A DNA stretch of 64,000 nucleotides, taken from assembly GCA_032622095.1 (NCBI GenBank), contig CP136066.1, positions 49,510,911 through 49,574,910 on the forward strand. Direction: 5' to 3'. The stretch comes from Siphonodentalium dalli (taxonomy: Eukaryota > Mollusca > Scaphopoda > Gadilida > Siphonodentaliidae). This document shows, piece after piece, positions 16,530 through 61,039 of this stretch (its first letter is position 1; each line of letters begins with the position of its first letter). The notes under the pieces were generated by a model. That model had not been told where the DNA came from and made no database searches. It worked only from the letters and a program-made list of their open reading frames with translations. Made by a program: the position numbers and the translations under genes.

Positions 16530-16571
16530 TATTATATATATAATATTATCATATGGTAAACTCACTATGTG

Positions 16572-16800: not shown

Positions 16801-16849
16801 GTTTTGTATAATAATTTTTTACTGTATATACTCATATCTGGCATATAAA

Positions 16850-27191: not shown

Positions 27192-27320
27192 CTGAAAGTG
27201 ACAAAACACACATTATTACATATATAGAGTTAACAGAGGGGAATACTATGATTGGACGAAGCGCTATATCGAGTGAGACAATTGTGTTGGCCATTGCCCG
27301 GCGGCATTTAATTAAGAAAT

Positions 27321-38059: not shown

Positions 38060-38500
38060 TCACAGTCATGTCGCAAGCATATGTGTGCTCTTCCCATATC
38101 CCAACTCAAGAACACATTGTGACATTAAGAACTAACCACGATTGAGCACAGTGACATTAACGGATTGACAGACCCATGTCATAGTTTATGTTGCAAGAAT
38201 ATGAACGCATGCATTTGACACTATCCCAATATTTGGGATATATACACAAAACCGCACGCGTGTGTTACTGGTGTCAGTATATCGAACGATTGCAATGTAA
38301 GGTCAGCACGTTCGGTTAATACCCTAAGTGTTATCCTTACGCGACGCAGGCATGCACATTGCCATAACTAGTGTATGTCGCAAGCATATGGATGCACTTA
38401 CGACACGATATCAATATCGCACGCTTGTATGGTATGGAATATATCCACAAAACCGTGCGTGCGAGTTATAGTTGTCAGTATATCGGACGGGTTCAATGGC
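38060..38500. repeat. Diverged tandem repeat (units ~125-190 bp)
   Basis: GTCGCAAGCATATG occurs near 38069, 38190 and 38381. The last two units share TATATCCACAAAACCG.(G/A)CG and GTCAGTATATCG.ACG. Confidence 0.65.
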
Positions 38501-38619
38501 GTAGGATAGCACAATCTGCCAAAAAACATTATTGTTCTCTTTAAGGGACTCATACATGAGTGGCATATACATGTATACACTATCGGCCAGTATATAAAAC
38601 AAACTGATTCTATGCATAC

Positions 38620-39479
38620 ATGTAGTAATACAAAAATATGTTAATATCGCTGTAATACAAGTAAATATATTGCTTGAGTTCTAGATACAATTTGTCCAGA
38701 TCGCATATTGGTCGTCATATGAATGCACATGTGGAAATGTAGCGGTACTTAGTATGAACTGTGGCAAGAAGCAGTTTAAGAATGAGACGATCATCAACAT
38801 GTTTTCCTACACATATGATTGCCAGAATGGTAGAAGCGGGTCTCTGATCATTTTGTATCAATTTCCCATTCCATCAATAAGAGTACACACACAAGGATTC
38901 ATTTTACCAAGACTTTTATGGATATTATGTCAGAAAAGGTCCATGTTACTTCGATCGACTAATACTATCCAACCTCGTTCACCAACCAAGCCTATACCGG
39001 CGGAAGATATGTACCATGGTGAAATGGACAAGCACAAAGTATATCTTCAATATCTGAACAAGGCCCGGTCGATTTCCTGGTTTATAATTTCAATTTCACG
39101 TTTCAAAACCAGTAACTGTTAGCTTTTCCAGTAATCTGATTGAGTCCGTCGCTACTCAATCGTTATCGATATGCAAGAACGTATGGATATCACATGCATC
39201 ATTTGAGCGTTGGTAGCGAAAGCGCCAGAAGTGGCAACTTCAATTTTCTCTCCACATACCATGTTGGTCCCTATTAAAATATTTATATAATATCATTTCG
39301 AGTTTGGCACAAGTCCATATACTTAATATTTGGGGAATTTTTACGAAGCTTATTTTGACAATAATTGTTATATAAACTCGCATTTTGAGTCATTGTGGTA
39401 ATACAACTGATAGGAATGTGTCATAACATGTCAATTATTTATTTGGAAGAAGCAAATTAGTCAACTACATTCAACTTCT
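38620..39479. other. One unexplained 122-codon frame
   Basis: A plus-strand frame with ATG at 38754 runs to 39122. It has FKNETIINMFSYTYDCQNG at the start and a basic middle, but no family is recognised, and no splice or promoter signal supports it. Confidence 0.3.
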
Positions 39480-40200
39480 ACATGACAGAAATGTTATTGA
39501 GTGGAAGAGGGTAAAATTTACGTATTATCGTATTTTGGCGGCCATCTTGGAAGCCATCTTGTATTAAGTTGACAGTTTCTGGATACAGTTAAATGTAAAT
39601 ACCTTATGTAATGATCCCACTCATTTCCATCACCGATTAATTCTAAATTTCTATAAGGAAATAGTTAGAAAATAAAAAAAGTATATTATGGCGAAAATTA
39701 ATACCACTTCCTTTAAATAATCGCATTCGAGAAAACTATCAAGGCTATGATCCAAGAAATCAACCAATGTGATGTCTAAGTGATTTGTTATCAAGATGGG
39801 AGAGAAGGATATTCCTAATCGTCACCAGTTCGATACAATCGGAAATGATGTAGGCGACATGTATGGAAAATTATCAATTTTCCCACTTCCGGTCGCCATT
39901 TTGGCGGCCATCTTTGATCGAGAGGACAAAGTTTTATATAAATATATAACATGACATCTTACCATACGCTGTACCAAAGGATTTTCCTATATTTTATATC
40001 GCAATTATATTTTTATCATGAAATCCTTCAATAGCGAACTTAAGAAATTGAGCATGGCGGCCATCTTTGTGACGTCATCAGACCACCCAGTCGCGACCCC
40101 AGGTGGTCTAACAATTTTTTTTATGAAGTAGGGACCATATACTGGCCCACCAACATGGTCTCTATATTTGTTCATGATTTTCCCACGGGAGCCCAAAATC
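39480..40200. repeat. Repeat-derived sequence with GGCGGCCATCTT motifs
   Basis: TTTTGGCGGCCATCTT, CATTTTGGCGGCCATCTT and ATGGCGGCCATCTTTG recur three times at ~350 and ~150 bp intervals. The same phrase is in the inverted-repeat elements at 41.8, 55.5 and 56.1 kb, so this is probably an old relative. Confidence 0.5.
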
Positions 40201-40280
40201 GGATATAAGCGACTCTACTATCAACTGTGTGCGACTTGTGTGCATTGTTTTGTAGTTCCAATTTACATTATGTCGTGATA

Positions 40281-40410
40281 TAATTGTTCATGATTCTCTT
40301 TACACATACATGAATGGACATTATAAGTTAGCTATAGGTTTAGCCACACGTAATTGTTCATGATTCTCTTTACACATACATGAATGGACATTATAAGTTA
40401 GCTATAGGTT
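40281..40410. repeat. Identical 60 bp tandem duplication, period 70
   Basis: TAATTGTTCATGATTCTCTT...GCTATAGGTT at 40281-40340 is repeated without change at 40351-40410. Identity over 60 bp marks this as a recent event. Confidence 0.97.
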
Positions 40411-41537
40411 ATTGCAAACTGTTGGTGGTGAAAATAAGATAATAGTTGACTAAATATAGTTCCGACGATATGTAAAAATAGATGTATCGGTCCGCAAAGT
40501 ACCATCCTTGTAACAGTGCTATATCGTAGTGCTAACGTAGACGGCGCTATGTATTATCATAGTATGGTTTTGGAGATACAATTGGCGGAAACGTCACGTG
40601 ATTTTACCGCGCCAAATCTACACGTTTATAGATATAGGCCAAACGTGTGAGGCACTGTCAAACAATAGCCTTACTTTGTTTTAACATTGTTTAATTCGGA
40701 TCAATCATATGGACATGTACACGGCATACACAGAGCAAGGAGGTGTGGTTACAGTTATGAGTAATTTACTGAAACAAAGAAAGATAGGTATCTTTCAGGG
40801 TTTTGTTGATCTATTCTATGGGTATTTATATAAAGGCGCATTTTGCAGAAAACAGTGACCACTAATCGAACACATGTGTCAGTATTGTCCATCGTTCTTG
40901 GAAGATATTGTCTTTACTGTAGGCATGTTGTCTATTTACCATCCGTTCAGTTGTTCTACATGTATATCTTCTTTGGTATCATATGAATCATTTTACGGCA
41001 AGTGTGTTCTTTATTTTACAGCAATAAATATACATATCTTAAATACGAACGAATATTATCATATTATTTGGCGCAGACATTAATAGCTGGTGGTGGATAT
41101 AAGTTGGTGGCGGAGATAAGATGTTGGTGGAGATAGGTTGCTGGTGGTGGATACATCCAGGTATGAAATGATGTTACCGAGATAAATATTTGTAATCACA
41201 ACAGAAGGCACATGGCGTGGTGTGGTATTCACCCCATCGTCACATAAATTCACACCAACTATAAATTTATGTGGTCGCCTGACGTCAAATACGGGGGTGC
41301 ACGATCAACGTCACAATTGATCGAAACTTTAAGTACAACGGTCATACATGTAACCCCAACGCTTGACATACTGCACCCGATATTTCGCGCACGTTCTCTT
41401 CAACACCGCGTACCCGGTGACCGATTAGAAGGTACTAGTCTGGTAATAGTGCGATTTTGAATACATTATGTTATCCTACTTATAGAGTTATTACGTCTAA
41501 GGTCAGAGTTAGTCACAGTGACTTGCGAAAAGATATT
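40411..41537. other. No supported gene; GGTGG-rich patch
   Basis: A purine-rich patch (GGTGGTGGATA variants, 41070-41170). Frames at 40874 and 41269 lack domains. Confidence 0.45.
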
Positions 41538-43025
41538 AGTCATGAGCTAATAGGGGTGCCATTGCACCCCCCCTGGGACTTAACTTCACTCCACTCATTT
41601 TGTTTCTTATTATGTCCTTCAACTTTTAAGCATTGTTAACAAGAAAAAAACAATGGCCGTATAGACTCCAGACAAGATGGCGTCCATCATTCCGCCGTTT
41701 TTCAGACCAGACCCTACATGTAAGTCAGATTTATGCAAATTATAGCGGGAAAATGTAACAAAATGTATACAAATGTATATATTTTCTTGAAGCTAAGATA
41801 TAATGACACTTTTCTGTGCTAAAATTGAAACTCACCACCCAAGATGGCCGCCAAAATGGCCGCCGGAAGTTGAAAATATGATATTTTTTCACAAATATCT
41901 TCTAGATCGATTCATGCTGTTTGGAACTGGTTGAGTAATATGACTTTATGTTGTGTTTTATATATTAACTAATCATTGGAGCAATTAAATATGCAATTAT
42001 TGGAGTCTTTGCCCCTTCCGATCCTCAAAATTTTCATTTTATTTTGGTATATCTGGAAGGGCTCACCATTGGTGATGTGTATATGTATACCTGGATTGAC
42101 TTTATGCTCATTGCTATGGCGAATAGGTATACAATGAGTGACTGTATTATCGTGAATGTGGTGAATATGTATACATAGAGTGACTATATGGTCATGTGTC
42201 GGGTGTAGGTGTATACCTGGTGTTCATGCATGGTGATTCGTAGCTGTGTCGTCATCTGTGGTATGTACGGGTATAACCAAGTTTGGCTGTATGATCAGGT
42301 GTACGTTTATAAAGTGGGTGACTATGTTGTCATTTGTGTGGTGTTTATGTACATATGGAGTGACGCAGGTAATGGGTGGGTTGTACATGTGTACCTTGGG
42401 TGGCTATCACTTTCCACAATAACTCAAGGATATGTTAATAAATAGAGTTCTCCATATTGATGGTGTTTATGTACATGCGGGAAATGTTAAGTGTGGAAAG
42501 CGATAGCCAGCCATTATCACAGAGTCATTCCATATATACATAAACACCACAGACATAACAATATAGTGACATACTGTATACATGTATACCTGACCCATGA
42601 CCACGGATGACCATACAGCCACGTGTAACAATGCAGGCACACCGGGTATACTCATAAACATGACCCATAACCATTTAGTTACTCCTTGTATACCCATTTA
42701 TCTCACCATTGGCCATAAGGTCATCCCCTGTATACATATTCGCCGCTCACATGGTCAAATAGACAAACAATATATACATCAACACCACAACAATGACCAT
42801 AAAGTCACTCCGGGTATACACATGCACCTCACCCATTGCCATATAACCACTCGCTTCATACACATACCCTCACCCATGGCACCTGGTTTACTCCTTCGCC
42901 TGACTATGGCCATATAGTCACCCCGTGTGTACCTATTCAATACATTCACACATGATCATGGTCAATCCTTGTATACATATTCACCTGAACATTGGACATG
43001 TCACTCCCTGTATCCATATTTCGCG
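41538..43025 (+). mobile_element. Inverted-repeat element with two-way minisatellite core, truncated copy
   Basis: Starts AGTCATGAGCTAATAGGGGT and matches, in inverted orientation, the full element at 53807-56379. About 1 kb present there (54900-55980) is absent here; the join is at CTGGAAGGGCTCACCATTGG. The core is ~60 bp units (GTGACTATATGGTCATGGGT with GTATATGTATACC) in one orientation at 42080-42440 and the other at 42540-43020, meeting at TTCCACA..CTCAAGGATATGTT. Its right terminus is lost where the helicase relic begins. The 106-codon frame at 42597 is minisatellite. Confidence 0.85.
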
Positions 43026-43159
43026 ACCTGAGTTCCAATCTGTTCTAAGTACCGTTCTGGTACGAAACGTCCGTTGGGGTACCATTGGAACCGGAATTCT
43101 ACAAGATGGTCGCAACACCGAAACGATATTTCGAATAATAACGCCGTAAAACACGGTTA

Positions 43160-45530
43160 TTTGTTGTCCGAAGAATTTCTTACTCAAGTTTTCTTGTTTG
43201 CAGTTGACGATGGATAGGCCATTGAGGTACCTGACTCTGCTCAATGCCATATAGCTAATGCCGGTGAAATAGCATTTTCTAATGAAACAACTGCTTTATC
43301 AAGAGTCAACCCTTGAACTTTATGTACAGTACAAGCATAGGCTAACATTAATGGAAACTGTCTTTTTATTCCTCTACTATAATTACCTTCAACATTAACC
43401 TCTATTGGCTGAAGTTTGACAACTAAATCTCCATTGGAAGCTCTTTCCATCATATCATGATCAATAGATTGATCATCAAATGTAACGATAACCTGCTTTG
43501 TTTTATTTCATTTGCATCCATGTTTTTTAATTCAACAATATTTCCCATAACACCATTGACAAGACCTTGATTAATATTAATATTTCTGACCTACATCACT
43601 CTTGCACCAAGAGCTAATTGCAATTGGATGGCAGACAAGAGTCCGTATGTTTAAATGGAGTGACTTTCCTTTTCAAACTTCCATGCTCATTATTATTTAT
43701 GTAATCTTCAGCCATACAGTCATAAATATTTCCAGAAAAGTTTTCGTTCATCACTTGTGTATTGTAAGCATTTACATACTTTTTGTACAGCATATGTGGA
43801 TGGCATCATCAAGTTGCCTGTCCAGGCAAGTATACAGTATATCCATGTCAGAGATTTGAAGTTGTTTATCTTTCTTTTTGACTCTGCACCTATTTATCGC
43901 ATGTGCAAATGCACCATCTTCCTTCTGGTGCATGACCTGTGTGAGTTCTGCAATTTCAAATTCATTATTGAAAATGTCATCAGGAGTTTTTGTTTTTACA
44001 TACAATCTGCTTTCTAAAGGAACTCTGACAGGAGGAAGTTGGTAAAAGTCGCCAACTAGAATGGTGGCCACACCTCCAAGAAGTACTTTATTTGATGTTT
44101 TCTTGATCGAATTGACCTTTCATGTAAATACAACAGAAGCCGTTTATGTATCATACTAACTTCATCAAGTATAACAACATACAAACTGCGAAGATTACAT
44201 CTCATGGTGCTGACTATATTCTCTGTAAGTCTTATTGGTGGTAATTGTAGTGTTATGGGTATTTTGAAAGTTGAATGCAATGTCGACCCATTGATGTTAT
44301 GGGCTGCATTGCCTGTAGGAGCGACTAAGAGAACGGTTGTATCGTCAGGTTCACAGCAACTTGTGATAACAGTCTTGTCATTTCATAATATATACACTTT
44401 ATCAAATGCGATTTCCCCACACCTGCTCCACCAGTCAAAAATAGATGATGACTAGGGGATGGATTTCCACATTGTACTCTATCTAAACACCAATTTCTTG
44501 TTTCATAAAATATATGTCTCTGTTGAACATTTAAAGACCTCAACATAGGTAGGATATCATCAAATGAAAACTTCATTGGGGCTTTGTCAACAACTGAATG
44601 TTCAGTTTTAGTAGATGAAAAATCAACATCACAATCAAGATTTTCATCATCCTTTACTGTTGAACTGATTTTGTTCATCATCTCTAATATTTCATTCTCT
44701 GCCTCTGGAAAGAGTCTTGACCATGCATCCTCAGCATTGATATGGTTCATCAATTCTTGAGCATTTTGAACATCAGTGGTGTGAGGCTCGAAAGGTGTTC
44801 GATTTGCATCAACAATATTTCTAACAGAATCCTTACTTTGATAAAGTCTGACATAGCCACTCTCATAAAAATCTTGATACTGAACGAAAGGAAGTGGCTT
44901 GAGTTGTCTATCAAATATGTGTGGTAGATACAATTGGAGAATACTGTGATAAAATTTCTCTGAAGCAGTGGACTCTGGAAATCTTGGAAATTTTAATATA
45001 GCACCATCTGATCTTGTTCTCCTTTGAACATAACCTAGACCATTCTCTAATCTAAATACTGTTTCAGTTATTGCGGGCCCCATTGTTTTGTCTGCACCTT
45101 TAGGGACCTGTGACTTTGCAAGTACTCTGTACTCAGAACAGAAGATAGCCAAGCAAATATTTTCAAATTCTTTGATTTTGGGTCTTTCTTTATATTTGTC
45201 AGGCATATTAGTGATGCTGATATTTGTTGTGTTCTCATTGATGTATCTAATTGGCAAGCTCATTCTGGTTGGATTCTCTCCAACTGGAACATAGTACTTG
45301 GCGAGAACTTTCTTTCATATTAAAATTGCAAACTCGGAAAATACTTTCTTGTGCAGTTATTTCCATCTTATTGAGGTATGTTCGACCAAGCTTTCTCATT
45401 GTGTCTTTTGCACTCACATTGCCTTCTTCCGCTTCTTTCTGTGTTTGACTCAGCAGAGTACTCATGTGGTGCTCATTTTTTGAAATATATCTGTCAACAT
45501 AGCAAATGCAACTGTAAACGAGTCTTTGCC
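43160..45530 (-). pseudogene. Helitron-type PIF1 helicase relic (frameshifted)
   Basis: Minus-strand pieces in changing frames give, in order, YVDRYISKNEHHMSTLLSQT and TAQESIFRVCNF; AIFCSEYRVLAKSQ, FPRFPESTASEKFYHSILQL; then SLNVQQRHIFYETRNW; Walker A TGGAGVGKSHLI; motif II YVVILDEVSM; motif III GDFYQLPPV and ELTQVMHQK; YACTVHKVQGLTL; and ALSRVRYLNGL. This is the helicase half of Helitron Rep/Hel proteins, which unwinds DNA during rolling-circle transposition. At least four frame changes make it inactive. The N-terminal HUH Rep endonuclease and element ends were not found, so a captured host-type PIF1 cannot be fully excluded, although the AQES..R and EKFYHS segments favour Helitron. Confidence 0.85.
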
Positions 45531-47404
45531 ATACCAGGGGTAGTCTAATTAGTTAAAAGTAGTCCACATAGAAGTTATACCAACAAAAGAAAGACGTATA
45601 TTTATGATGTGACAGGAGTTTAGAGAAAATGCTGATAGCTGAAAAACACAATCTTAGTCGAGCGCATTCGGAATATCTGGGTAAATTTAAGTTTCATGCA
45701 GCAAAGCTGTCACTGCAGACAGTTCTCTAGAAATTTGTTGAAAACGTTGAGCATTCTATATGGGACACTCTATCGTTGACGTGTTCGCACTGAAAACCAC
45801 AAATCCCTATCCAGTGACTCGAATAAAGACATATTTCCAAACATACCGTAAAAGTAAAACGTACAATGCGGGCAGGAGTAAACTCCGACGCGGGCAAAAA
45901 TCATTCCCGCAGTGGCGTTTACTCCAACACCGTGGAGTGTCTCATGCAATTGTCAATATTGTTCTACTCAAATGCAGAAGATTTTCAAAGTGAATATAGA
46001 TTTAGTTTCCTAAAATATAGAACGTTGTCAACGTTGTCCAAATTTATCACCACACACTCATCTCGGAGCTGAACACACACAAAATTGAAACATGGAAGCT
46101 TATTCTCCCAGTATTTCGTCACTTTATTCCTCTTCGAACTGTTAACATTTGTTGATGCTGTGTTCACCATACACCTCGTGGATCCGGAGTTGTGTCCGAA
46201 CAAAAACAATTAATAAAACAATTTCCCTCAAAAGAAACCTACCCGTACTCTTCACTCGTGCCCGCAACGGGATTTACTCAACATTTGCCCGCAGTCGGTA
46301 TTACATGATGATCAGCGTACATATGCACCTGCGGTTATACATGTATAAACGGACCATACGCGCCAGAAAACGATTATGTAGCGATTACACTGTAACGTCG
46401 TACAGCACAATAAGGCGACACGCGTGGGATCGAAATGATACGGACGACCAGTCGTAAAAAACATCAACATCAAAATACACAGCGCAAGGTGTATCGATGC
46501 AAACTATGGAGTGTGTTTTCCTGGTGTATATCTCGCATATATATACACAAGGTATATAGGCCTATAACCGGGCTATCTGTATCTGGCCGTTAATGTTTAC
46601 GACCTGACTGACAGTTTCGTTACCTGCAACACTTTAAATCGAACCACGGGCTCAAATTAAGAACCCAATACCAAATGTCCCACTTCCTCTCAAAACTGGT
46701 GGTTGTTGCCCTAGAAACGCGTGTTTATCGATGAGAAGACTTAGTGACATGGCCCGTGGGGCTAACTAAGAAAACAGCAAGTTTTCTATCAAAACGTTTA
46801 CGTATTAGTCAACGGCAGTTAATAACATCGCTCCAATCTGCCGCGAAAATTCATTAATGCTTAAATGACGTCACATAAATTGTGACGTTTTCAAGGGAAT
46901 TTATTATCTTATATACTTAATATTATGATCAAATGTCTTATCGGCTGCAACGGGTGATACCTTATATGGAAGGTGAAGATCTTAAGATATTTATGGTGAC
47001 TATCCTCTCCAGCAAAACAGGTGTGTGATTGTCTGATAAGAAACAGATTTCAAAATAGACCTCATAAAATCGCTTATTGTTTGATGACCTTGACCCTTAA
47101 CAAATGACCTTGACCGCACAGACGAGTGACATTTGCATCAATTTATCGGGCTATACCAGGACAATAATTTTGCATAAATATAATAAGCCACGGATTCATT
47201 TTAGCTCTAATAATGATAATTTCCATAATTTTATTGAAATCCTAGTGGTTGGCATTGAAACTGGATTTTCACCATAAATGCACCACTTTGGGTACTATCA
47301 GATGCCCCATATTACAGGCTATAAATGTTATATCACAATCTCATGTGAGGGTATATATATAGGTGCATTAAGCATTAAGAACAATATGGGGTCCTTGCCG
47401 CTCA
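45531..47404. other. No supported gene
   Basis: Contains a small inverted repeat GGAGTAAAC...GTTTACTCC (45873-45928). A 102-codon frame at 46149 lacks a domain. No Rep endonuclease for the adjacent helicase was found here. Confidence 0.45.
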
Positions 47405-47412
47405 CATATTAA

Positions 47413-47914
47413 CAGGGTTCGCGCTGCCACTTGCCAAATTTGCCAATGGCAAAACAATTCACATTTGGCAAAACATATTTTCATTGGGCAAAAGTTTTGG
47501 CAAGTCACTTTTTAATTCCTCAAGAAAGTTAAAAAAAAATAGTGGTCAATCAATATCATTAATTTCAGGAAACTCTTACAACATAATTATATTAGTGGTG
47601 TTTTATAAGGTTTAGAAAATCTTAACCCCTCTATTAAGTGACAGTTAATCCTCTTGTGATAAAGCAACCCTTCTGCCATTTTATTGTTCGGTGATTGGCT
47701 TATTGTTATATGGTACACTAAATAGAGTTGCGAGTATAATTAATTATTAACTAACTGATTTTCTACGATATCAAAAGACGTTCAAACCATGCGTGACGAA
47801 ACATAGGACTTAAGGTTGCCGAAAAATGATACTATCAGTGATAGCATTTGGCAAAAAATATTTTCATTTGGCAAATTATTTGGCAAAAATAAATTTGGTC
47901 CAGCCCGGACCCTG
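47413..47914. mobile_element. 502 bp hAT-like MITE with 8 bp target duplication
   Basis: Ends CAGGGTTCGCGCTG (left) and, complemented, CAGGGTCCGGGCTG (right). Flanks CATATTAA (47405-47412) and CCTATTAA (47915-47922) match at 7 of 8 bases. CAGGG termini plus 8 bp duplication are classical hAT features. Subterminal TTTGGCAAA motifs recur many times on both strands near each end, as transposase-binding repeats often do. No transposase. Confidence 0.85.
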
Positions 47915-47922
47915 CCTATTAA

Positions 47923-48443
47923 CTTATGCATCAGTTCTAAATCGTTTTTGTTAATTTGGTCATCAATTATGAGAGAAGAACTTTTCTGTGTTGAAATAAT
48001 TTGTGCTCCCATCCCCATTGTCCTTCCTCCTGTCTATCTCTCATGCAGTTATAAAAAAAAACAAATATGTATGTATCCATCCTCGTTCATAGTTATACAA
48101 TAAACTATGTCGATGATGTAAACATTCTTGTAATAAATCCACATATTCTAGGTTACATGTGTAAGAAAGCACCTCCCCGATATACAGATATAAACAACAG
48201 ATTAATGAGTATGCCCGTTGATAGAGGTTTTAACTGGTTACTAGTATACAATACGATTTGTTTGTAATGTCCAAGACTTGCTCCAGCTGCCTGCCCACAC
48301 TAACGTCTAAACGAAAACAAGACATTAAACAAGATTTACAAGAACTCTAATAGCTGCTAATAGCTGTATTGCTGGACATTCGTATTCTTTTTATATGAGT
48401 GACACTTTTGACCAACCTAATTATTTATATAAATATATAAGAC
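47923..48443. other. No supported gene
   Basis: AT-rich sequence between the hAT MITE and a Helitron; short frames without domains. Confidence 0.45.
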
Positions 48444-48741
48444 TAGTCGGTGGGCCCGACTTCGTCCGGGCTATTTAGGGATTTCTTTGCCAGAAACATG
48501 ACTATATGAGCGTATATGAGCAAGGACACGGTCGCATGCAAAATTGGACCCGATTTGACCTTCAATTGACCATTTCTAAAGTCAAGGTCAGGTCGAGGTC
48601 ACGATTTGACCCGTTAAAAACACTCCCCGGACAAAAGCACCCCTAGGTATCAAATTTCGTCGATAACCGTCCTGCAGATTTCCCGGCCAATGCTAATAAA
48701 CAAATAAACACACAGACAGAAGTCCCAAAAGATTTAGTAGA
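48444..48741 (-). mobile_element. 298 bp non-autonomous Helitron with both ends
   Basis: Minus strand: A, then TCTACTAAATCTTTTGGGAC at the 5' end; hairpin CCCGGACGAAGTCGGG, CCCACCGA, CTAG and T at the 3' end. Insertion between A and T, TC start, subterminal hairpin and CTAG end all fit. Interior shares GACCTTGA..TGACC and GGTCACGATTTGACCCG blocks with 14252 and 15184. Confidence 0.9.
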
Positions 48742-48774
48742 TACCCCGTCATAGTCTAACACTAATACCACCGA

Positions 48775-49137
48775 ATGATATTTACACTCTAACATGCATT
48801 CGCGTTGTGGAACATGAATGCAGGATGTTGGTTGGTCGAAATTACGTCACATGACGTCGCGCGCTGACCCCAACTTGCATCCATTTTAGTGTAGACGCAA
48901 CTTGCTCCGAGACACGATAATAACGTTGGAAATAGACGCTTAAAACTCTTTTAATCTGCCAGTTGACTCGATTGAGTGTAAATATAAGTAATGAATGTTG
49001 ATTTTGTTGCGTTCCACAGAGTATGGATGCAAGTTGGTCTGACATTTTCATATGTGGAACGCTTTCGCGTCCCACACAAAATGTCAGACCAACTTGCATC
49101 CATACTCTATGGAACGCAACAAAATCAACACCCATTT
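48775..49137 (-). repeat. Interspersed foldback repeat, copy 2
   Basis: Reverse-orientation copy of 27321-27640. Its hairpin has ~60 bp arms (48995-49060 and 49070-49134, GTTGATTTTGTTGCGTTCCA...GTCTGACATTTT) with few mismatches. Confidence 0.9.
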
Positions 49138-50155
49138 CTTAATTGAAAGTAAGTGATTAACATTTTGAGAAAATGGGTTATTTTTGGGGTTCCATTGCTT
49201 TTGTGTGCTCAAGTTAGAGGATCGTGTCCAATCCTATCATCATATGCAGTTTTGTTTCGTTCACAGAAAGATATCTACCGACTTTTTAGTGAATTTCACC
49301 AATGTTATCACACATTATGGGTGAAAACTACTTTAAGTGCTTCATTTTAGTCAACAGAGAAAACTAGAACACCTGCGAGCTGTTCTAAACTAAAAACAAA
49401 GTAAAATAAAGCATTTGGATAACAATTCATGATCTATCAAAATGCTTGTTTTGGCCTCTGAACACACAGCTACCGAGGGGGGGGGGGGGTGGGCATTGTA
49501 TAGCACTTTTACCCCTAGCCACCCGGTTGTGACTGCTGGACATCGACTATCAATGGAGACCTTTCACAAAATCACGATTACGGATTTGGACAATATCCTG
49601 CCAGTATACGGCCAAAATTCGATCGTAACGCACGAGAGTTCTTATGTGAGACGAGATATACCCCACCAAGTTTAATTATGTGTCAAGGATGTGCCACCGG
49701 TCCTGCGTGGGGACGCTGTAACAGTATCCGTATAACACACGGATAAGAACATGGGATCTGAAGAGACACATATTACCTTTAACTGAATATAGTGGGGCAT
49801 ATGCCGTCTCACCAGTTAACCATTGTAGGTAAATTTGGATGGTGTCCACCTTACTATGACAATATATCCTATCCGTAATCGTAATAGATATTTTGCGAAA
49901 GGTCTCTATTAAGGGAGTTTTAACACGTTTTGTATTTTTGCCAGCCCAGCAAATATTCCAATGATCACAAAAAAACGTCCATACTTCAGTTGCACAAAAG
50001 CGGTATAAAATAAAGAGGAAATTCTGAATTATTTGGGCATCAAATATGAAGGGGCATCTTTAATGTATTGTCCAAATCATGTAAATGCAATCTGGAATAA
50101 GGAATAAAGATATAAAGAATATCTAGATATGCGTTACATATAACGAGAAACAGTG
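49138..50155. other. No supported gene; 13-base G run
   Basis: A run of 13 G is at 49477-49489. Frames at 49153 and 49442 have no domain. Confidence 0.45.
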
Positions 50156-50159
50156 GTCG

Positions 50160-50480
50160 GCTGTATCACACCCATCTTTTGGTAAAATTTGAACAGCTGG
50201 AAATTCCATGCCGACACAATATCAAGAACAGCTGGAAATACCATGCCCGACACAATATCCCTGAGTTGGACATTTCAAACTAAAAATTGGTTCAAATTGT
50301 TCTGATAGTTTGATTTTCCAACCAGTATTTAGCGTGAAATGTGTTGTTTCAGACCGAAAGTCTCAAATTTTCTTATTAAAGAAATATTTTTTGGACTGAT
50401 ACATATATGGATATCAGTTGAAAATGTTCTTGCTGTCGGGATTGAAATGTACAACACTTGGAAATATTGGGGGTAACAGT
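50160..50480. repeat. Dispersed repeat with TGGAAATTCCA motifs, copy 1
   Basis: ACAGCTGGAAAT(T/A)CCATGCC occurs twice, then GTTCAAATTGTTCTGATAGT, TTGATTTTCCAACCAGTA. The latter block recurs at 57940-57975. Confidence 0.55.
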
Positions 50481-50580
50481 TGAAAAAAAAAAACATTACA
50501 AGGGGATGTCTGGCTCATGTGGGTGCATGCAGTTGTAAATTATAAAATGTTCACCCACATTACCGAGACCCTTTAGTCAC

Positions 50581-51500
50581 ATCCTTGTATATATCTGTCG
50601 CACATTGTTGGCGTAATGTCGTATCGTAGTACTTAGCTGTAGGGCGTATGTTGCAGATTTCATTCCAGATTGTACTCAGTTTGAATAAGAACCACATTAA
50701 TCATGAACATATTGTTGTCACTTTCATATATCAATAACCAACAGCTTGTTCCTCTGAAACGTATTTCTAAATGGGAAACGAATGCGCTAAATCCTTGTAT
50801 ATATCTGTCGCAGATTGTGGGCGTAATGTCGTATCGTGGTACTTAGATGTAGGGTGTATGTTGCAGATTTCATTCCAGATTGTACTCAGTTTGAATAAGA
50901 ACCACATTAATGAAGAACATATTGTTGTCACTTTCATATATTAATAACCAACAGCTTGTTCATCTGAAACGTATTTCTAAATGGGAAACGAATGCGCTAA
51001 ATCAAAACGAAAGTATCGAAATCGACACGTACTATATAGTGTTATATAGTTGTTAAACGTCTAAGGATACATTCATACATGTGGCGAAATTGTTATAAAT
51101 ATAGAATATATTTGAACTACCTTTCTACGAGCATATAATTGTGCCAGAAAGACGCATTGCAGTCATACAATATACAACTGTGAACATGATGTTTGGGTCA
51201 CAAACAAAACAGCCATTTGTATGGAATGGGGCAGAAAAGAGCGTTCCGTTGTGTTAGTCTATTCCTGATTTGGTCGAAATGTACGATATTGGTTGTGAAG
51301 ATGCTGTTTTTGGACCGAGTCCCATCTCGTTACTCTTCTGTAACAGCCCCATGTACCACGCCATTGATTTCCAAAATGGGCAAGTCTGCGTTAAATCTAA
51401 ACAAAAGCATCGTTCAACACATAGTATATATATAGCTGTCATAAACGTCTAAGGCTATGTGCATATCGTGGCAAAATTGTTATAAATATAAACCTCCCAA
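50581..51500. repeat. 210 bp tandem duplication plus an older third copy
   Basis: 50581-50790 and 50791-51000 are about 96% alike (ATCCTTGTATATATCTGTCG ... AACGAATGCGCTAAAT). 51200-51500 is a diverged relative of 50791-51110, including the trailing TAAACGTCTAAGG and AAATTGTTATAAATATA, so two rounds of duplication of different age are stacked. Confidence 0.9.
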
Positions 51501-51534
51501 ATCGCCTCTTGACAGCTAAATACGTGGAGTAAAC

Positions 51535-52020
51535 CAGATAAGTGACTCATTCGTCATCTCTTGTTTAAACCTGGTCCAGCCCCACCCATTTCGCAGTGGT
51601 GTCTTTACATTGTATATCGTCTAGCGAATAATATACAATACTTGTCTAATCGGGACCACTGCGTTCTGTCGAAAGCGACAAATAGATAACTACGACAACG
51701 AGTACATTTTGATTGTAGATTTATAATCAAGAAGCACTCACACCAATCGTCGCCTATAACGTTTTTATTCAGTTGTATTTTTGTTTGTGTGTAGCATGAT
51801 TCGAAAATTGGACCACCTGTTTTCCGTATGGCCGTATTCGGTTTAAACCTCCGAGTTTAAACCTGGTTTAAACCTAAATTTGAGGTCCGACCAAACCGGG
51901 TTTAAGGGGGCGTTTTTTATTTGGCAGCTAACTGACAACTCGATTCGGTGATATAAGCATGCAGTCAAACTACCAGTCGGACCAAAAAGACAGGCCGATA
52001 TAATTGTTATTAGCACGTCA
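51535..52020. repeat. GGTTTAAACC repeat family, copy 1
   Basis: CATTCGTCATCTC.TGTTTAAACC, a middle block shared with 61230-61340 (ACGACA.CG..(C/T)ATTTTGATTG), and a TTTAAACCTGGTTTAAACCT end near 51855-51875. Also LIKELY part of the same: CAAACTACCAGTCGGACC. Confidence 0.65.
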
Positions 52021-53806
52021 TAAAATAGAAGCTGTCTATCTGTATGTCCGTTTTTTTTTCGCAACTGTTCTCCCGTAACCCTGGACCGATTTCAACCAAA
52101 ATTAGGTGTGATGACTCGCATGGTATAACGGCGTTAGGTTTTAAAAATTTTGATTTAAAGATTAGACAAATTTAATTTAAAAATACATGAACAAATTGTG
52201 TTGTTAAAATGAGTAAGGAGTTGAATCTAACAAGAAACAACATTTACATTTTTTTATTAATATGTTGTTTTAAACTTAATTAATTTTTTTTTATTAAAAT
52301 GTACAAATGATCAAAATGTGCGCAACGGTGTCGCAGGTTCCTATCGCACATAGGGGCCTCATGCCCATCTGAATGGCGAATAAATGCTCCATAATCGAGT
52401 CAATCCTGATCCAGGAGGTCAGTCAAGTAAAGACAATTCGCTTATGAGTGTACAACAGGGGCGTCATTTTTATCTGTTGGAAGTGGGCACATTGACAGCT
52501 TTTAATAAAGAAATATATTACATGCGTTGCTCTTTTTCAATGTCATAACTTTCCTGTCATGCATAAAATCAAAAGGTTCCTAGGTTTTGAACTGGTGAAA
52601 TATTATGGGAAGTTATGGGCGAAGCCAGAGTAGAGCTTTGCGGCATGATCTGCATAAAAATAAGTTACCAAATTGGCAACATAAGTCTAGGATTGCAAAC
52701 TATGTGTATAGCATATCTGGTCATGCAGTAGCATCGTTTTGGTGTCAAAATTGAAACGTTGAACCCTGCAAAATAATTCTTAGAAAACACCAGTATTTGT
52801 GATTGCCACAAGCCAAAAAAAAGCACAAGATTGTTGTAAGGGTGGATACACACATGCATGTAATTTATGTAAGCAAAATACATGTATTTTACATGGCCAC
52901 TCCAATAATTATTGACAACATTAATCACCTGCGCACAAGCGGTTCATCGTTAACAGGCCAGACAAGTGAGTAGTGATAAGCGAAGTCAATATGTCTGCTA
53001 TCAGGACATTTAAGGCCAGTCCAAAACATGTCTTCTCTTACGGATGCGGAAATTAGTCAAGTCAGTGTGATATCTGGCATTTTATTAATGCACGAACACC
53101 AGAAGCGACACATCTGGCATATACAGGCCTGATAAAGAACATGTTCGACCACGATGCTTGTTTGGCGTGGGGTCTCGAAAGCTTCAAATCGCTAAGGGAC
53201 TTAGTTGAATCTATCGGTCGGAATAATCTGGGCAAGAAGGTAAAATATAATATCTTTTACTTAAACAGCAGAGTTAGCCACCCCGCCTGGTAGCTTTCGG
53301 GATCATATATAGCCCCAAGTAGGGGATCATATAGCCCCTACGTCGGAGAAATCCTCATCCACCACTGCTATAAATATCAAGAGTGAACAGGTAATTATTT
53401 AAATATTTAAATATATCGGTTAGCCCGCGAACTGTTATTTTAAGTTGCCTGGCGACTCGGTCCAAGATAGCAGCTTCTCTACATTCCGACTTAACTAGAA
53501 CTCAGTGCGGTCAACACGTCGGCAATGATTGGGGTGTCAGTGGACACATATTACATTGTCTGTATGATCCATGTAAAACGTCAAATACACGATAATTACA
53601 GAGATTATAGTTGCTTTTCTAAATGAAAATAATCATTACATTTCACGAATCAAGAATAATTTAGTCTCCTCTGACGATCTTGAGATATGATATCATGGAT
53701 ATATGAACTGCACGTTTGAAAACAATCATATTTAAAGGGTCCATGGCAAAACGTACGTCTATCCTTAATCATTCGCACGATTTACCTATTAAATATGATT
53801 CTATTT
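52021..53806. other. No supported gene
   Basis: 52040-52140 resembles a Helitron 5' part (TGTCTATCTGTATGTCCG, CCGATTTCAACCAAAATTAG) without a terminus. The rest is stop-rich. Confidence 0.4.
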
Positions 53807-56379
53807 AGTCCGGGAGCTAATAAGGGTACCCTTGCACCCCCTGGGACTTAACTTCACCCATGGCTGGTGTGTATTAGTATATCTTGAGTGGCTATTCGGC
53901 TATGGTGTGACAAATTGGGATACAGGGAGTGACATTGGCCAATGTTGAGGTGGATATGTATACAAGGATTGACCATGATCATGTATGAATATGTACACAC
54001 GGGATGACTATATAGCCATAGGTCAGGTGAAGGAGTATACCAGGTGACCTGGGTGAGGGTGTGTGTAAGAAGCGAATGGCTATATGGCCATTGGTGAGGT
54101 GCATATGTATACCGAAGTGACTTTATGGTCATTATTGTGGTTTTGATGCATATATTGATTGTCTATTTGACCATGCGTTTGGAGAATAGATAAACAGGGG
54201 ATGACCTTATGGCCACTGGTGAGATGAATGGGTATATAAGGAGTGACTATATGGTTATGGGTCATGTTCAGGAGTATACCAGGTGTGCCTGCATTGTGAC
54301 GCGTTGCTGTATGGTCATCCGTGGTCATGGGTCAGGTGTACATGTATACAATGGGTCACTATATTGTTATGTCTGTAGTGTTTATATATATATATATGTA
54401 ATGACTGTGATAATGGGTGGCTATCGCTTTCCACGATATGACTCTCTGACATGACCTCTCTATTGATTAACATATCCTTGAGTTATGGTGGAAAGCGATA
54501 GCCACCCAATGTACACATGTACAACCCCCCCATTACCACAGTCACTCCATATGTACATAAACACCACACAAATGACAACATAGTCACTCGCATTATACAC
54601 GTACACCTGATCATACAGCCATACTTGGCTATACCCGTACATACCACAAATGACGATACAGCCACGAGTCACCACGCATGAACACCAGGTATACATCTAC
54701 ACCCGACATATGACCATATAGTCACTCTATGTATACATATTCACTACATTCACGATCATATAGTCACTCATTGTATACATATTCACCTCACCATGTACCT
54801 TTCAGCCACTACATGTATACCTATTCGCCATACCATGACCATAGAGTCACATATATATACATATGCACATCACCAATGGTGAGCCCTTCCAGATATACCA
54901 ATACCCGCACATACGACCACTCATAAGTTCCATACTTGCCATACTTATACACGCCATCCATGATCATACATCCACTCCCCATACACCACCAATAATAACA
55001 CATCCACAAGATATATGAATATACGTCCCACCGTTACCAACAGGGCACTCCATATATACCCACACATCATTCATGACCATACCATAACTCACTGTATACC
55101 TATTATCCTCATCTATGACCATCGGGTAACTCACTGGTTGCCATCTTGGCTTCCACCCTGTACCCAGTTGATAAATTTTATCATAATGGGCCAGAATACA
55201 CACATATCATAGTTAATTTCAGTTCCGTCTCAAAGTTCTGCCCATTTCCTTTCAATAATATGGCCAGAATCACAAAAGATGTTCTCCGCAAAATTCCATA
55301 CTGCAACTTTGAAATGAATTTGTCATGCCCCGTACGGAACTGGGACAAACATAATAGAACGTAGTTGTTAGTTATAAGTGAGTCACAATTTGCTACTTTT
55401 TTTCGGATACTGCAGAGAATAATGTTCGGGAAATGTCAACTTTTAACTTTTTACCAATTTGGTTGCCATTTTGGAAGCCATCTTGAGCAATTTAGTCTAT
55501 ACACACCGTAGTGTGACACATTTAAGATAGACCAAAACAATAAACACCTTTTATCCCAAAGATAGCTGCATGTTACTTGAGTAAATGGTCGAAAAAGTTC
55601 ATTTTTGTCGATATTTATGTCAAGTTTGTGAGAGAAAAAAAACAATATTTCTGGTGATGTCAGTGGTAACAATAGTAAAAATGAGCCATGGTGCATCAGA
55701 CATGTTAGTATGCAATATATAGAATACATATTAGCCAATTGTATATATCAACCGCAACTTGTAAGCGATTGCAGGACACGCTGGTGTAATATTTACCATT
55801 TTCTATATATTGGCGTCCATATTGGCAGCTATTTTGAGCCAAAGTAAGAATTTTGGTTCCAGTGATTTGGAATATGAATACGTAATGATATGCGTCACTT
55901 ACATTACAAAGTTCTGGTTCATTTCTTGTTGAAATATGACTAGAATCCCACTTGTGATTTTTTTGTGAAATTTTATACCCCATTGTGTAAAATCGAATTT
56001 TTGAGGGATCGGAAGGGGGTAGGACCCCAATAATTGCACATTTAATTGCTCCAATGATCAGTTAATATAAAAAACACAAAATACAGTTGCATTGCTCAAC
56101 CAGTTCCAAACAGCATGAATTGATCTATAAGATATTTGTGAGGCCATTTTGGCGGCCATCTTGGATGGTGAGTTTCAATTTTGGTCCAAAAAAAAGTGTC
56201 ATTATGTCTTAGCTTCACGAAAATATATACATTTGTATGCCATCTTGTCTGGAGTCTAAATGGCCACTTTTGTTCTTGTTAACATTGCTTAAAAGTTGAG
56301 GACATAATAAGGAACACAATTAGTGGGGTCAAGTTAAGTCCTATGTGGGTGCAAGGGTACCCCTATTAGCTCTCGGACT
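53807..56379 (-). mobile_element. Full 2.57 kb inverted-repeat element with two-way minisatellite core
   Basis: Ends AGTCCGGGAGCTAATAAGGG and (complement) AGTCCGAGAGCTAATAGGGG, inverted-repeat homology continuing ~50 bp through CTTGCACCC and GGACTTAACTT. TTT lies at both outer edges, a possible 3 bp duplication but weak. The core is ~60 bp minisatellite units in one orientation at 53870-54440 and the opposite at 54490-55110, with GTGGCTATCGCTTTCCAC facing GTGGAAAGCGATAGCCAC across the centre. 55140-56300 has repeated CCATCTTG/GGCCGCC phrases. No transposase; the autonomous partner is unknown. Confidence 0.85.
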
Positions 56380-57559
56380 TTTCCTAAACCTGTATCAACG
56401 GCTCGTCCAGAGTGGTCATTTCTGTTTACATGGACTTATTAACGTCGTTTTGTGGTAAAATTCTAGATACAACAAAAATCGCGGTACAGTCAATGCAATG
56501 CTGCCAACGCCTCAACTTTCAGAACGCCGATAATTCAAACCACGTGCGAATTGGTTAATCTCAAAATGGCTACCTGCTAATACTGAGTTTTGTTTAAGAT
56601 AGAACAACAATAGGTTGTGCCTACTGCGGACGGTTTTTGAAAACAACTGTTAACGTCATGGTTTGGTGGAAAAACATACCACACATCGAAACTGGACTAT
56701 TATCACACCGGTCACCCGCGTATCATTAACACGGCGGAGTACCTATTGGCACGGATATCCGGTCGTCTGTTCAATGTTTTGGTGTCAAGAAAATGTGAGT
56801 TCTTTATTTATATGCATTTTATTTATAATTATTTCCGATTTAATATTAAGAAAATAAATCCATTGCAATATTCGTGTGTGTGGATAATCTGATACGCTTG
56901 CTTTGTTTGAATAATCTCGGTATGTTCAGAGACAGCTACAACGAAAATGGGAATAACAGTATTAATCGCTCTTTTTCACCAATAACAACTGGCGACGAAC
57001 GGATCAAAAGGACCATACTATATTATATAATATGTACCCCACAAAACATGATGGTAGCAGCTTCATCTGATGCATAATTCTCATAAAACAGCCTCTTCAA
57101 AACACGTCGATTGTAAACAAATTTGTACCAACAACTCGGTGAGAAATACCGGTTGTTGCGGTAAACAATACGTTTTGAGTACCAACTGACTCGGTGTTAA
57201 AGTTTCCCACAATTGGAATGTTTTCTTGAATTTAGGACACGTCGGACAGAATATAACCCAGAAATATAGCATGCTATACAACGGCCTATGAAATTTGATG
57301 GAACTGATGGGTTTTAAACCGATTTGGCACATCTGACCGTTTAAAAAAAATATTTATTAGCTCCAGGATAAGTTTTTTGCAAGTTAACATTATTTTTCCA
57401 TTTGTTTCCAGAAATGATATGGCAGATCATGTCCAGAGACTGTTCGGATGACAACAACAACAACACCAGAGCCTCAGGATTCCAGAAATTCTCAGCTCGT
57501 ATCCAGCATGTGTTATCAGATCAACCACATCGAGTTGGAGCTTGTACATGTACCACAAA
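56380..57559. other. No supported gene
   Basis: A 64-codon frame at 56663 precedes a donor-like AAAT/GTGAGT near 56795 but has no domain. The minus frame at 57081-57332 is also unassigned. Confidence 0.4.
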
Positions 57560-58170
57560 CGTTCTGAAATCTTTGAGTTAATTTTCAAAGTTACACCCAT
57601 ATGGTTGGCCATTTCAACTAATTGACATTTCAGTCCAAAAACATATGACAGGCCTACAAATCGACCAGTGTACCATTTCCAAGTGGTGGCATGCAGGCAC
57701 GACATTTCCAACTATTGGCCAATTTGGAAAACATTGGCTGAGTAGACACTCAAATTCCTTAACCCATGTTCCATAATAAATAGAATATTGATAACCAACT
57801 TCTCCCTCTTAACGCTCCATATACATGAACGCGTCGACATGGCATGCTTTGGTAATTTTTTCAACAATCTGCAACAATCGGACATTTTATTCTTGACACA
57901 ACGTTCGTTGGAAACGTTACACCAAGTATATAATAGGTTGAAATTGTTATCATTATTTGATTTTCCAAACAGTAATTAAGGGGGACATGTTGTTTTCAGA
58001 AGAACGAGAGCACAACAGTTGATGAGTTTGAAATGCCAGTTGGAAATTTCCAACCAAAGTTGATGCAATGGTATGTCAACTCTATGGATTTTGGTATGGC
58101 TGTTTGTGGATGGGTGCAGTTGGAAATTTCAAAGTGGAAACTCCCCCCAACAGGGATATGACAGTCATGT
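57560..58170. repeat. Dispersed repeat with TTGGAAAT motifs, copy 2
   Basis: TTTGATTTTCCAAACAGTAAT, ATGTTGTTTTCAGA and many GTTGGAAAT / CATTTCAAC words match 50160-50400. Orientation of the words alternates. Confidence 0.5.
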
Positions 58171-58261
58171 CCTCTGACCCATAAGTGTGTTAGTAGTATG
58201 CAAACAATACCCAGGTTTTTACAACAAACGAAATTGGAAGACATTGCTTTATTGTGAACAC

Positions 58262-58657
58262 TTAGTTCGTTGTCTTCTGTCTGTGGTTTGCATGGCCAGT
58301 GTTGTACTTGTAAACCCTGCCACATTCACAACTGAATGTGGTCCCACTGTGTACGGCAATTCTGTGAACTCTTAAACTGTTTGCGCCAGAGTAACACTGC
58401 GTACATTCTGATGATGAGCAGCCAGAGTTTCCACCGCATGCTTTTGCATGACGTTGCGGGTACTCTTTAGCGGTAAACGTGTTCCCGCGGGACTTACTTT
58501 TATATGGACATGAGCCAGTTTGTATATTCACGTGTGTCTGGAACGCCGTATTCTTGTAAAATGATTTTGTCCTTAATGACAAACCCCTGAGACTCAAAAT
58601 AGTATTTCGGAGTCCCCAGACAAATGTGCGGAGCTTCTGCCACCATTTATTAATCAA
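58262..58657 (-). CDS. Open frame with C2H2 zinc-finger-like pattern
   Basis: A 131-codon minus-strand frame begins MINKWWQKLRTFVWGLRN and ends TGHANHRQKTTN. The second half is cysteine/histidine rich: SSECTQCYSGANSLRVHRIA, VHSGTTFSCECGRVYKYNTG, HANH. C..C...L..H....H followed by an H(S/T)G..F.C linker resembles tandem C2H2 fingers, although the first finger is three residues short and the second has C.C spacing. The basic first half could be translated non-coding sequence. It might be an exon or a transposon-derived protein; neighbours are repeats. Confidence 0.35.
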   Translation of the reverse strand: MINKWWQKLRTFVWGLRNTILSLRGLSLRTKSFYKNTAFQTHVNIQTGSCPYKSKSRGNTFTAKEYPQRHAKACGGNSGCSSSECTQCYSGANSLRVHRIAVHSGTTFSCECGRVYKYNTGHANHRQKTTN

Positions 58658-59082
58658 TAATATCTTCTTCTTCTTCTTGTTTTTGTTGAAATGTTACCCG
58701 GAAAGAGAAACAAAAAGACTTTTAAATCGGGAAAACACTTTGGACGCTTGCAAAATATCCATACCAGTGGGTACTTCAACCGCGACAATAGGTACTTTCG
58801 CAAGAAATTACACCGATTTGTTGATACTCATAAAATTATCGACAACAATTATTTAAATCCATAATTTGGCGTTTTTGTATGGTTCTAACACACGACAAGG
58901 ACTTGTTCCTGTCAAAAGTAATGTACATCTTTTCGAAGCTTCAGGATGACATGGACAATTGAACACGGTTGTGATTATATCAATATTTAGTCAGAATTAT
59001 TTCCTCAGACTGTAATTTTTTTCCAAATAATCGTTTCAAATCATTAGAAAAGTCACGATTTAAATGGGTCAAAGAATTTCTA
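58658..59082. other. No gene; short (TTC)n
   Basis: A CTTCTTCTTCTTC run at 58662-58678 and otherwise stop-rich AT sequence. Confidence 0.5.
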
Positions 59083-59424
59083 TCAACGAGTGATAATCCA
59101 TCTACATAATATGTGGTTAACTGTTCTTCTGGGATATCGAATTGCAGTCATTTTAGCGATATTAACGTACATATATCTTCCTCCATTGCACGGGATAGGC
59201 TTGACCGGATTCTCGATTGGCGGTACGATCACCGTGTTGGTGATACGCGGGTGACCGGTGTGATTATAGTGGATTTCTGAAACCAAGATATGCACGTCTG
59301 ACACAACAATTTCGATGAACACATACAACATTACACAAAGAAATAAAAACAGTGCGCACACTGCGCGCTTATAGTTTGATATGACCACACGAATTGATTG
59401 CTGGACTCTACTCCGCGTCGGCAT
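59083..59424 (-). CDS. Candidate type II membrane protein, N-terminal exon
   Basis: ATG at 59422-59424 opens a 113-codon frame: short basic cytoplasmic part (MPTRSRVQQSIRVVISNYKR), one membrane helix (AVCALFLFLCVMLYVFIEIV), then a lumenal stem with an N-glycosylation site (NHT), proline-rich VIVPPIENPVKPIPC, and NGGRYMYVNIAKM. This layout is typical of Golgi type II enzymes such as glycosyltransferases. The C.GGRY.YV phrase recalls the start of exostosin/GT47 catalytic domains, but that is a guess. The frame ends at TGA near 59083 or may splice earlier. A TATA-like box lies about 100 bp upstream. Confidence 0.45.
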   Translation of the reverse strand: MPTRSRVQQSIRVVISNYKRAVCALFLFLCVMLYVFIEIVVSDVHILVSEIHYNHTGHPRITNTVIVPPIENPVKPIPCNGGRYMYVNIAKMTAIRYPRRTVNHILCRWIITR

Positions 59425-59520
59425 ACAACCAGTGTATTTGTGGTCAACATTTGCAATACACCCCAATGTGCAGTGTATTATGTCTTGGTGTAAACATTAT
59501 TTAATATGTTTGTATCCCAG

Positions 59521-59530
59521 ATTTATATAA
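59521..59530 (-). promoter_or_regulatory. TATA-like box upstream of the type II membrane frame
   Basis: Minus-strand TTATATAAAT, 97-106 bp before the ATG at 59424, allowing a start near 59495 and a ~70 base leader. In an AT-rich region chance occurrence is common. Confidence 0.3.
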
Positions 59531-60720
59531 CAATTTACAAGATGATGTTCATATATATGATTAAGTATGGTAAGTCTGAGAGAGAAGAGGATTTGACATC
59601 AAGCTCCAGGCGCTTATATGGAGCCATCTCCTCAGAAAAGAACAGTAAGTGCGTAGTGGAAAGATAGAATTAGAGATCGAGAGGTAGGAGACAAATCATA
59701 TGAAGTGGGAAACAGAGGAATTGATGAAGTAGAAGTAAAGGTAGAATTTAAGAATGAAAAAAGAAACAAGACATATAGACAAATTTAAAAAATGAGATGG
59801 TCACTGCTCTGTATATATCAGTTTGATATATAGATTTGAAATTAACGGTTGATTCATTTTACTATTTTTTATGGATCAGCCAAACGAGTTGCCAATCGAG
59901 GGGAGTCATTTGATGTGCCCAACATGTGCCCAACATGTGCCCAACTAGCAAACATGATGTCGTCGGAGTATTTGTCCAGCTGGTATTCAAGTTTCCCCGT
60001 ACACTGTCTGATAATTAGTTAGTTCAATTTAAGGGTCTCCGAACCCAAGACAATATCAGTTGTTTAAGGTACTCAATCCGATTCGATGTTCCCCATATCA
60101 TCAGATTCCAACAACAACGACATTTCTTGAAATGCCGCTTCAGTTATCAGAATCGATTATTTGACAACAAATAATGCTATCAAGTCAACTATATTTAGAA
60201 ATTGTCCAAAACTCAATTTCGTATCGAGAGTATGTCGGTTGGCATTCATCGAATATTTGCTAGGCCGCCAAATATTTCAGGTGGTGAAAAATAATAGATT
60301 TAAATAATCGATATATGATCACTCTGAGCATTGATTGGTGGGTTCCTGGACTCTAATCAGATATGTTTTACCCCGAAATCAAAGAAATAATATATTATGA
60401 TCATTAATTCGGATTGTGGATCCTTAAGTATGTGTAACTAGAATTGAGTATCCAGTATCGAGTGTAGGAACACATGCACTTCAGTTTTCAATGGAAAGCT
60501 ACCCTGCCATAATAACATTCTTTGTCTCATTTATTTTCCAAATCTGTTTTCAATCTGCCGCTATGATTAATTACAACTGCATCGTTAGATATTCAGATTA
60601 GAGCATGTTGTTGGTGTAACAGCTTTCACGATGCCTTACATTTCTGTGAACGGGTCATTTTCTTCGTGGAAAGTTCCACGCAACACATAATCCCACAAAC
60701 CGGCTGGCACCACCCTCTCA
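59531..60720. other. No supported gene
   Basis: Contains three head-to-tail ATGTGCCCAAC words at 59919-59948. Otherwise stop-rich. Confidence 0.45.
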
Positions 60721-60782
60721 CTATAATAAGCAACCGCCCAAGTTACAAATTCATTCTCAGAATTCCAAGTCCAGATCCTGGG
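60721..60782 (+). promoter_or_regulatory. Possible promoter and non-coding first exon
   Basis: CTATAATAAG at 60721 is followed ~30 bp later by an initiator-like TTCATTCTCAG and, at 60783, by a perfect donor (CTGG followed by GTAAGTTTT). This spacing fits a TATA promoter with a ~30 bp 5' UTR exon for a plus-strand gene whose coding exons are not in view. Confidence 0.25.
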
Positions 60783-60939
60783 GTAAGTTTTATTATGTGC
60801 TAACGGCATAGTATCGCAAGCTTTAAATTAAGCCTGATATTCGATTTTGTGTTCATTTCCGGATAAAAAATTGTTCTAAACAATTTCTTTGTAAGAGAAA
60901 TGCATCTATTTTATATTTTGGAACTTTTGTCTGTGCGTA

Positions 60940-61030
60940 TGTATGCCAATATGTATGTGTGTGTTATAGACTCGAAAACTGCCTGACTCAAATTTGGTAT
61001 GTAGGCCTACTTCGATTTATAGTTTCGTGT
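60940..61030 (+). mobile_element. Helitron 5' fragment
   Basis: GTGTGTTATAGACTCGAAAA, CTGCCTGACTCAAATTTGGT match the 5' part of the 15184 element. No hairpin or CTRR end follows. Confidence 0.4.
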
Positions 61031-61039
61031 AAACATCCG

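Follow-up and report, generated by a model that had tools for sequence, protein, structure and literature searches.

The window, the whole stretch of 64,000 nucleotides analyzed here, contains two dispersed copies of what is probably a DNA transposon family that is old, non-autonomous, and of foldback architecture and that was mobilized in trans by cut-and-paste. We place it with the foldback elements because the layout matches: tandem units make up inverted arms around a middle piece, coding content was not recognized, and the copies are dispersed. Foldback-type denotes a structural group and not one phylogenetic family. The first-pass annotation had described a single transposon-like unit with a structure not recognized from described families. 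A single unit with opposed arrays was indeed found; however, its structure is one that foldback transposons are described as having (PMC4079207, PMC3169594).

Copy 2 is a complete element of 2573 bp on the reverse strand (53807-56379), delimited by inverted ends and by TTT at both flanks. The terminal inverted repeats (TIRs) were located through an inverted-repeat search and alignment, the array-side repeat at 53807-53859 (forward strand) and the second at 56326-56379 (reverse strand). They match over 54 columns with 88.9% identity in BLAST (E 6e-13), in agreement with the shared ends of ~50 bp in the first-pass annotation; a separate inverted-repeat search returned 33 nt at 94%. The family has AGTCCGRGAGCTAATAGGGG ends, and its termini follow the pattern AGTCC...GGACT. 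The flanking DNA reads ATTCTATTT on one side and TTTCCTAAA on the other, with TTT bordering the element on both sides. At this one site, the three bases adjacent to the element are repeated, and the flanks taken as 9-mers agree at 3 of 9 positions; a three-base match has a chance probability of ~1.9% (0.019). The TTT that the first-pass annotation proposed as a possible target duplication does flank copy 2, which is the sole copy with both ends and thus provides both the flank comparison and the element boundaries; this single site weakly suggests a 3-bp target duplication. The element is asymmetric: on one side the TIR leads directly into an array, and on the other ~1.2 kb of unique DNA lies between TIR and array. 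This unique part (55141-56325, reverse strand) is AT-rich and was without a Pfam domain in a six-frame scan.

Two opposed arrays facing a common center, as noted in the first-pass annotation, are present in both copies, together with a central inverted repeat. In copy 2, lag-42 autocorrelation and the fit to a 42-bp consensus placed one arm at 53860-54412 (forward strand; 15 pieces including partial ones, 75% identity to the consensus) and the opposed arm at 54510-55140 (reverse strand; 16 pieces including partial ones). The hairpin core between them (54414-54508, no strand assigned) has arms of 25 nt (54414-54438 and 54484-54508) that are 96% paired and separated by 45 nt. Lag 42 was the top lag in three of the four arms and came second, after lag 180, in the left arm of copy 1. 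Three of the four arms had a lag-42 value above that of every one of 100 dinucleotide shuffles; in the left arm of copy 2, the autocorrelation at lag 42 (0.354) was the highest of all lags, yet it remained below the best shuffle (0.367). Lag 60 was outside the top ten lags in every arm, and the period is 42 bp, not the ~60 bp reported earlier. The consensus unit fitted over all arms, TGACTATATGGTCATGGGTGAGGTGTATATGTATACAAGGAG, contains the near-palindrome TGACTATATGGTCA. Identity to this consensus ranges from 71 to 76% per arm, and the arms divide into 15, 16, 8, and 14 pieces when incomplete ones are counted. Comparisons of the unit, core, and TIR revealed no similarity beyond that of shuffles that would make them derivatives of one another.

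Complementarity between the two arms extends over 848 BLAST columns in copy 2 (63.7%) and 318 in copy 1 (66.0%), gaps counted. Folded as single-stranded DNA, positions 42060-43021 of copy 1 have a predicted energy of -171.8 kcal/mol versus -118.0 (sd 7.0) for 20 shuffles (z -7.69; 0/20 shuffles as low), with the arms mostly paired with each other. This prediction, made for copy 1 only, agrees with the very large hairpin that had been suggested. A mirror order of the two arms is favored, not proven: the best registers were shifts +1 and 0 in copy 2 (117 and 89) and shifts -1 and 0 in copy 1 (108 and 99), and other registers reach 88 and 93; a self-shift control measured no more than overlap.

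Copy 1 (41538-43021, forward strand, its end approximate) was delimited by alignment to copy 2 and comprises a single end, a portion of the unique region, and both arrays with the core. Against copy 2 in reverse complement, its alignment falls into three colinear blocks, in which 119/134, 231/257, and 846/932 aligned bases are identical. The two inverted copies of the first-pass annotation were recovered in this alignment, although copy 1 is incomplete. It has no equivalent of 53807-53911, the distal ~105 bases that include the array-side inverted repeat, nor of 54902-55987 (~1.1 kb, comprising the outer array and much of the unique region). Because the copy 2 array runs outward into the latter segment, we infer that the segment was deleted in copy 1. 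In the part common to both, copy 1 has one 42-bp unit fewer than copy 2, and three places in copy 1 have additional bases (85, 27, and 31). The order end-unique-array-core-array is common to both copies; the array-side end is found in copy 2 alone.

Orthologous arms are 89-90% identical between the copies (466/518 and 323/363 aligned bases), whereas within one copy the best registers of the two arms give 76-77% identity (copy 2, 255/331; copy 1, 229/301 and 235/309; aligned bases). With gaps counted in the BLAST columns, the values are 82.9% between copies versus the above 63.7% and 66.0% within. Since orthologous arms are more alike than the arms of one copy, the inverted arms probably predate the separation of the copies. 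In the unit-by-unit comparison, the right arm of copy 1 and the left arm of copy 2 gave one clear diagonal at offset 1, with a mean identity of 0.80 (14 unit pairs) versus 0.57 for the whole matrix. For the other orthologous pair, a scan of fixed offsets (-4 to 5) fell short of the diagonal, which was read from the matrix: two units lie on it at offset 7 and the next six at offset 8 (values 86, 88, 93, 95, 88, 84, 100, and 75), and the shift between the offsets is one extra unit in copy 2.

Changes in arm pairing were counted from each copy. Pairs taken from copy 1 (n=307) broke on a single side in 28 cases and were restored in 15, with no compensatory changes; the corresponding counts for pairs from copy 2 (n=302) were 28, 12, and 0. 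Under a simple null, breaks would number 40.4 (sd 4.3) and compensatory changes 0.72. Fewer breaks than the null could alone mean constraint; we read the low count as probable bias, because only pairs unbroken in the reference copy were used, and changes in that lineage count as restorations. The possibility that the arms were kept alike by repair or hairpin selection since the divergence was considered and is unsupported (0/307 compensatory changes). The first-pass annotation suggested that replication slippage may spawn the arrays. Ongoing slippage or arm-to-arm repair finds no support, because compensatory pairs are absent and both copies have identically ordered units, with one 42-bp unit differing in number. 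The arrays appear to have been passed on as a block from copy to copy, an argument against fast turnover of the arrays within the element.

Two old relatives of the unique part were present among the matches listed for the window. What had been annotated as an end fragment at 30430 is a relative of the subterminal unique part, at 30445-30554 (forward strand; 121 columns, 71%, E 1e-11), in which roughly the terminal 36 bp are absent. The other, at 39511-39961 (reverse strand), has colinear matches to both copies, with 138 columns at 69% to copy 1 (E 2e-16) and 219 columns at 62% (E 3e-11) plus 69 columns at 70% (E 2e-4) to copy 2; the short motif AAGATGGCCGCCAAAATGG, of which there are further occurrences nearby, makes up part of the match. 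Among the matches listed, the array was undetected at both relatives, and no array homology beyond copies 1 and 2 was found in the window (best E 0.09). An older element of ends and unique part may have gained the array later, or the array may have disappeared or decayed in the fragments. Three sites in the window matched a 17-base end pattern when up to three mismatches were allowed. Two are the ends of copy 2; the end of copy 1, which has changes of its own, was not matched. The third site (57354-57370; three mismatches, 0.14 matches expected by chance), at which no element was seen, may be a worn end fragment or a chance match.

With X at stops, the six frames of copy 2 had no Pfam match at E<0.01; one match, to BH4 (12 residues, E 0.055), was under its cut-off. 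The same search of 37000-41600, 45000-53900, and 56380-61300, run without a positive control, returned nothing at 0.01, and neither a transposase nor a partner was found in copy 2 or in these three regions. An enzyme-coding partner with the same ends, which the first-pass annotation had thought worth looking for, was found neither with the 17-base end pattern in the window nor in the six-frame Pfam search of those parts. Frame-broken pieces of a PIF1-type helicase (43241-45552) adjoin copy 1, and the window also contains an RVT_1 match and a sub-cut-off C-type lectin match; together these suggest that the host is probably an animal and perhaps a mollusc. The element sequences had 0 matches in virus and prokaryote contig collections, groups in which an absence is weakly informative; two viral contigs sharing 17-23 bases with the core were taken as chance. 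In the literature searched, by topic and not by sequence, none of the papers was recognized as an account of this family.

The relatives bear on a composite origin, in which an older TIR element consisting of ends and unique part gained an unrelated palindromic minisatellite by insertion or growth, and copies 1 and 2 came from one chimera. This origin is compatible with the foldback reading, and we entertain it as a tentative possibility. It is consistent with the match of both relatives to the unique part, the array being unfound there among the matches listed, and with the unit and core having no similarity to the TIR above shuffles. However, the relatives are fragments at 62-71% identity, in which an array with arms 24-29% off consensus could escape detection, and the order of parts is the same in copies 1 and 2. 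That shared order also answers in part the first-pass caveat that ends and core could be separate repeats that only happen to be adjacent; on the other side stand the two relatives, with a unique part and no detectable array, and an array-side end seen in copy 2 alone.

Copies 1 and 2 are no more than 15 kb apart and inversely oriented, as would be expected if a non-mobile satellite region had undergone inverted segmental duplication with no transposition. The homology, however, stops where the inverted repeat does, and beyond the end common to both copies the 100-bp outer flanks are unrelated (493/500 shuffles score as well); we consider such a duplication highly improbable. We give equally little credence to a rolling-circle origin, in which a non-autonomous element of Helentron/HINE type with central tandem repeats was moved by a Helitron-like helicase, the remnant of which would be the PIF1-type pieces beside copy 1. 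Helentrons and HINEs have subterminal inverted repeats and a terminal hairpin and are not known to duplicate their target, whereas copy 2 has full TIRs at its very ends, and the terminal hairpins in 3/3 ends were not significantly above shuffles (z -0.05, 0.85, and -1.5). The rolling-circle origin does have a parallel in the Pacific oyster, where dispersed tandem arrays are described as riding on Helentron elements (PMC7492417). Some observations also weigh against the foldback reading: the boundaries and the target duplication come from one insertion, with the chance probability given above for its flank match; the long inverted arms reach the ends asymmetrically; the unique-part relatives are without an array among the matches listed; and no transposase or partner was found in the parts scanned.

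Under the foldback reading, which we prefer, the short TIRs would be the transposase substrate, and inside them the inverted arms of 42-bp units would surround the small core hairpin. Cutting at the AGTCC...GGACT ends and insertion of the element would be the work of a transposase provided in trans and would perhaps leave a 3-bp duplication, to judge from one site; movement would be by cut-and-paste. The arms would have arisen by tandem growth, then inverted duplication, before the copies separated, and the hairpin would have no current function. Long inverted arms of tandem repeats are present as opposed arms of 42-bp units, and single-strand fold-back is predicted for copy 1. As to arms continuous from the ends, TIRs of 53-54 bp stand at both ends, and the ~1.2 kb of unique DNA parts TIR from array on one side. 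It seems doubtful that the palindromic 42-bp arrays are putative binding-site arrays that recruit a transposase or host protein and are inherited as a block, in a foldback element of a superfamily with 3-bp target site duplications (TSDs).

Foldback-like elements need not share descent, according to the accounts in PMC4079207 and PMC3169594. Tetris from Drosophila virilis is described as having inverted repeats with flanking, tandem-repeat, and inner domains and no apparent coding capacity, and is placed with Mutator through TSDs of 8-10 bp (PMC4079207). By that description, it resembles the present element in being non-autonomous, with tandem-repeat inverted arms around a middle, an external flanking domain, no coding, and an unknown transposase source. 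It differs in its unit of ~220 bp versus 42 bp here and in its 8-10 bp TSDs versus a possible 3 bp; here, moreover, one side is without a long flanking domain. TSDs are given as 4-10 bp for IS256/MuDR and as 3 bp for Zator (PMC10045372). A Mutator-length TSD (8-10 bp or 4-10 bp) was not found at copy 2, the single testable site, and nothing beyond the possible 3-bp duplication ties the element to Zator. Tm1, a Mutator/Foldback family of root-knot nematodes with arms of ~14-bp units (PMC3169594), likewise has composite inverted ends in which short tandem units vary in number, and it includes MITE-like members; as described, it is decaying in some species, like the decayed copies here. The ~14-bp units, 9-bp TSDs, and, in some members, a putative Mutator-type transposase set Tm1 apart. 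Galileo of Drosophila, as described partly in PMC4079207, has long, internally repetitive inverted repeats resembling Foldback; it differs in belonging to the P superfamily by its transposase. By analogy with these systems, we regard the element as a further foldback-type member whose architecture is already described in Tetris, Tm1, and Galileo. By itself it opens no long-standing question; it would add to the foldback group a family with a possible 3-bp duplication, versus 8-10 bp in Tetris.

The window also holds an inverted repeat far larger than the foldback-type element, with arms at 414-3529 and 15957-18971. These arms, about 3 kb each and 12.4 kb apart, are 92-95% identical and contain 78-bp and 103-bp tandem arrays; they also carry a C-type lectin match that fell below its cut-off (E 0.0024). 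The large inverted repeat is perhaps an inverted gene duplication.

The window has other repeats as well. A 131-bp tandem repeat containing GACCTGACCTTGACCTT is located at 14310-15833, and stretches similar to it occur in both orientations, close by as well as at 48.5 kb (48485-48669). Another dispersed inverted repeat pair (27307-27630 and 48778-49147) is 80% identical. A reverse transcriptase remnant is located on the plus strand at 24906-25295 (RVT_1, E 1.5e-15).

Beyond the complete element (copy 2), a 17-mer at 57354-57370 resembles the end of that element, with 3 mismatches; it lies 975 bp past the element, and 0.14 such matches are expected by chance.

Helicase pieces with a broken reading frame occupy 43241-45552 on the minus strand; about 220 bp separate their low end from the side on which the incomplete copy 1 is truncated. 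Two had PIF1 matches (E 2.8e-9, and 1.5e-4, the latter below its cut-off); the remaining three had sub-cut-off matches or none. Presumably, these pieces resemble the Rep-helicase of Helitrons.
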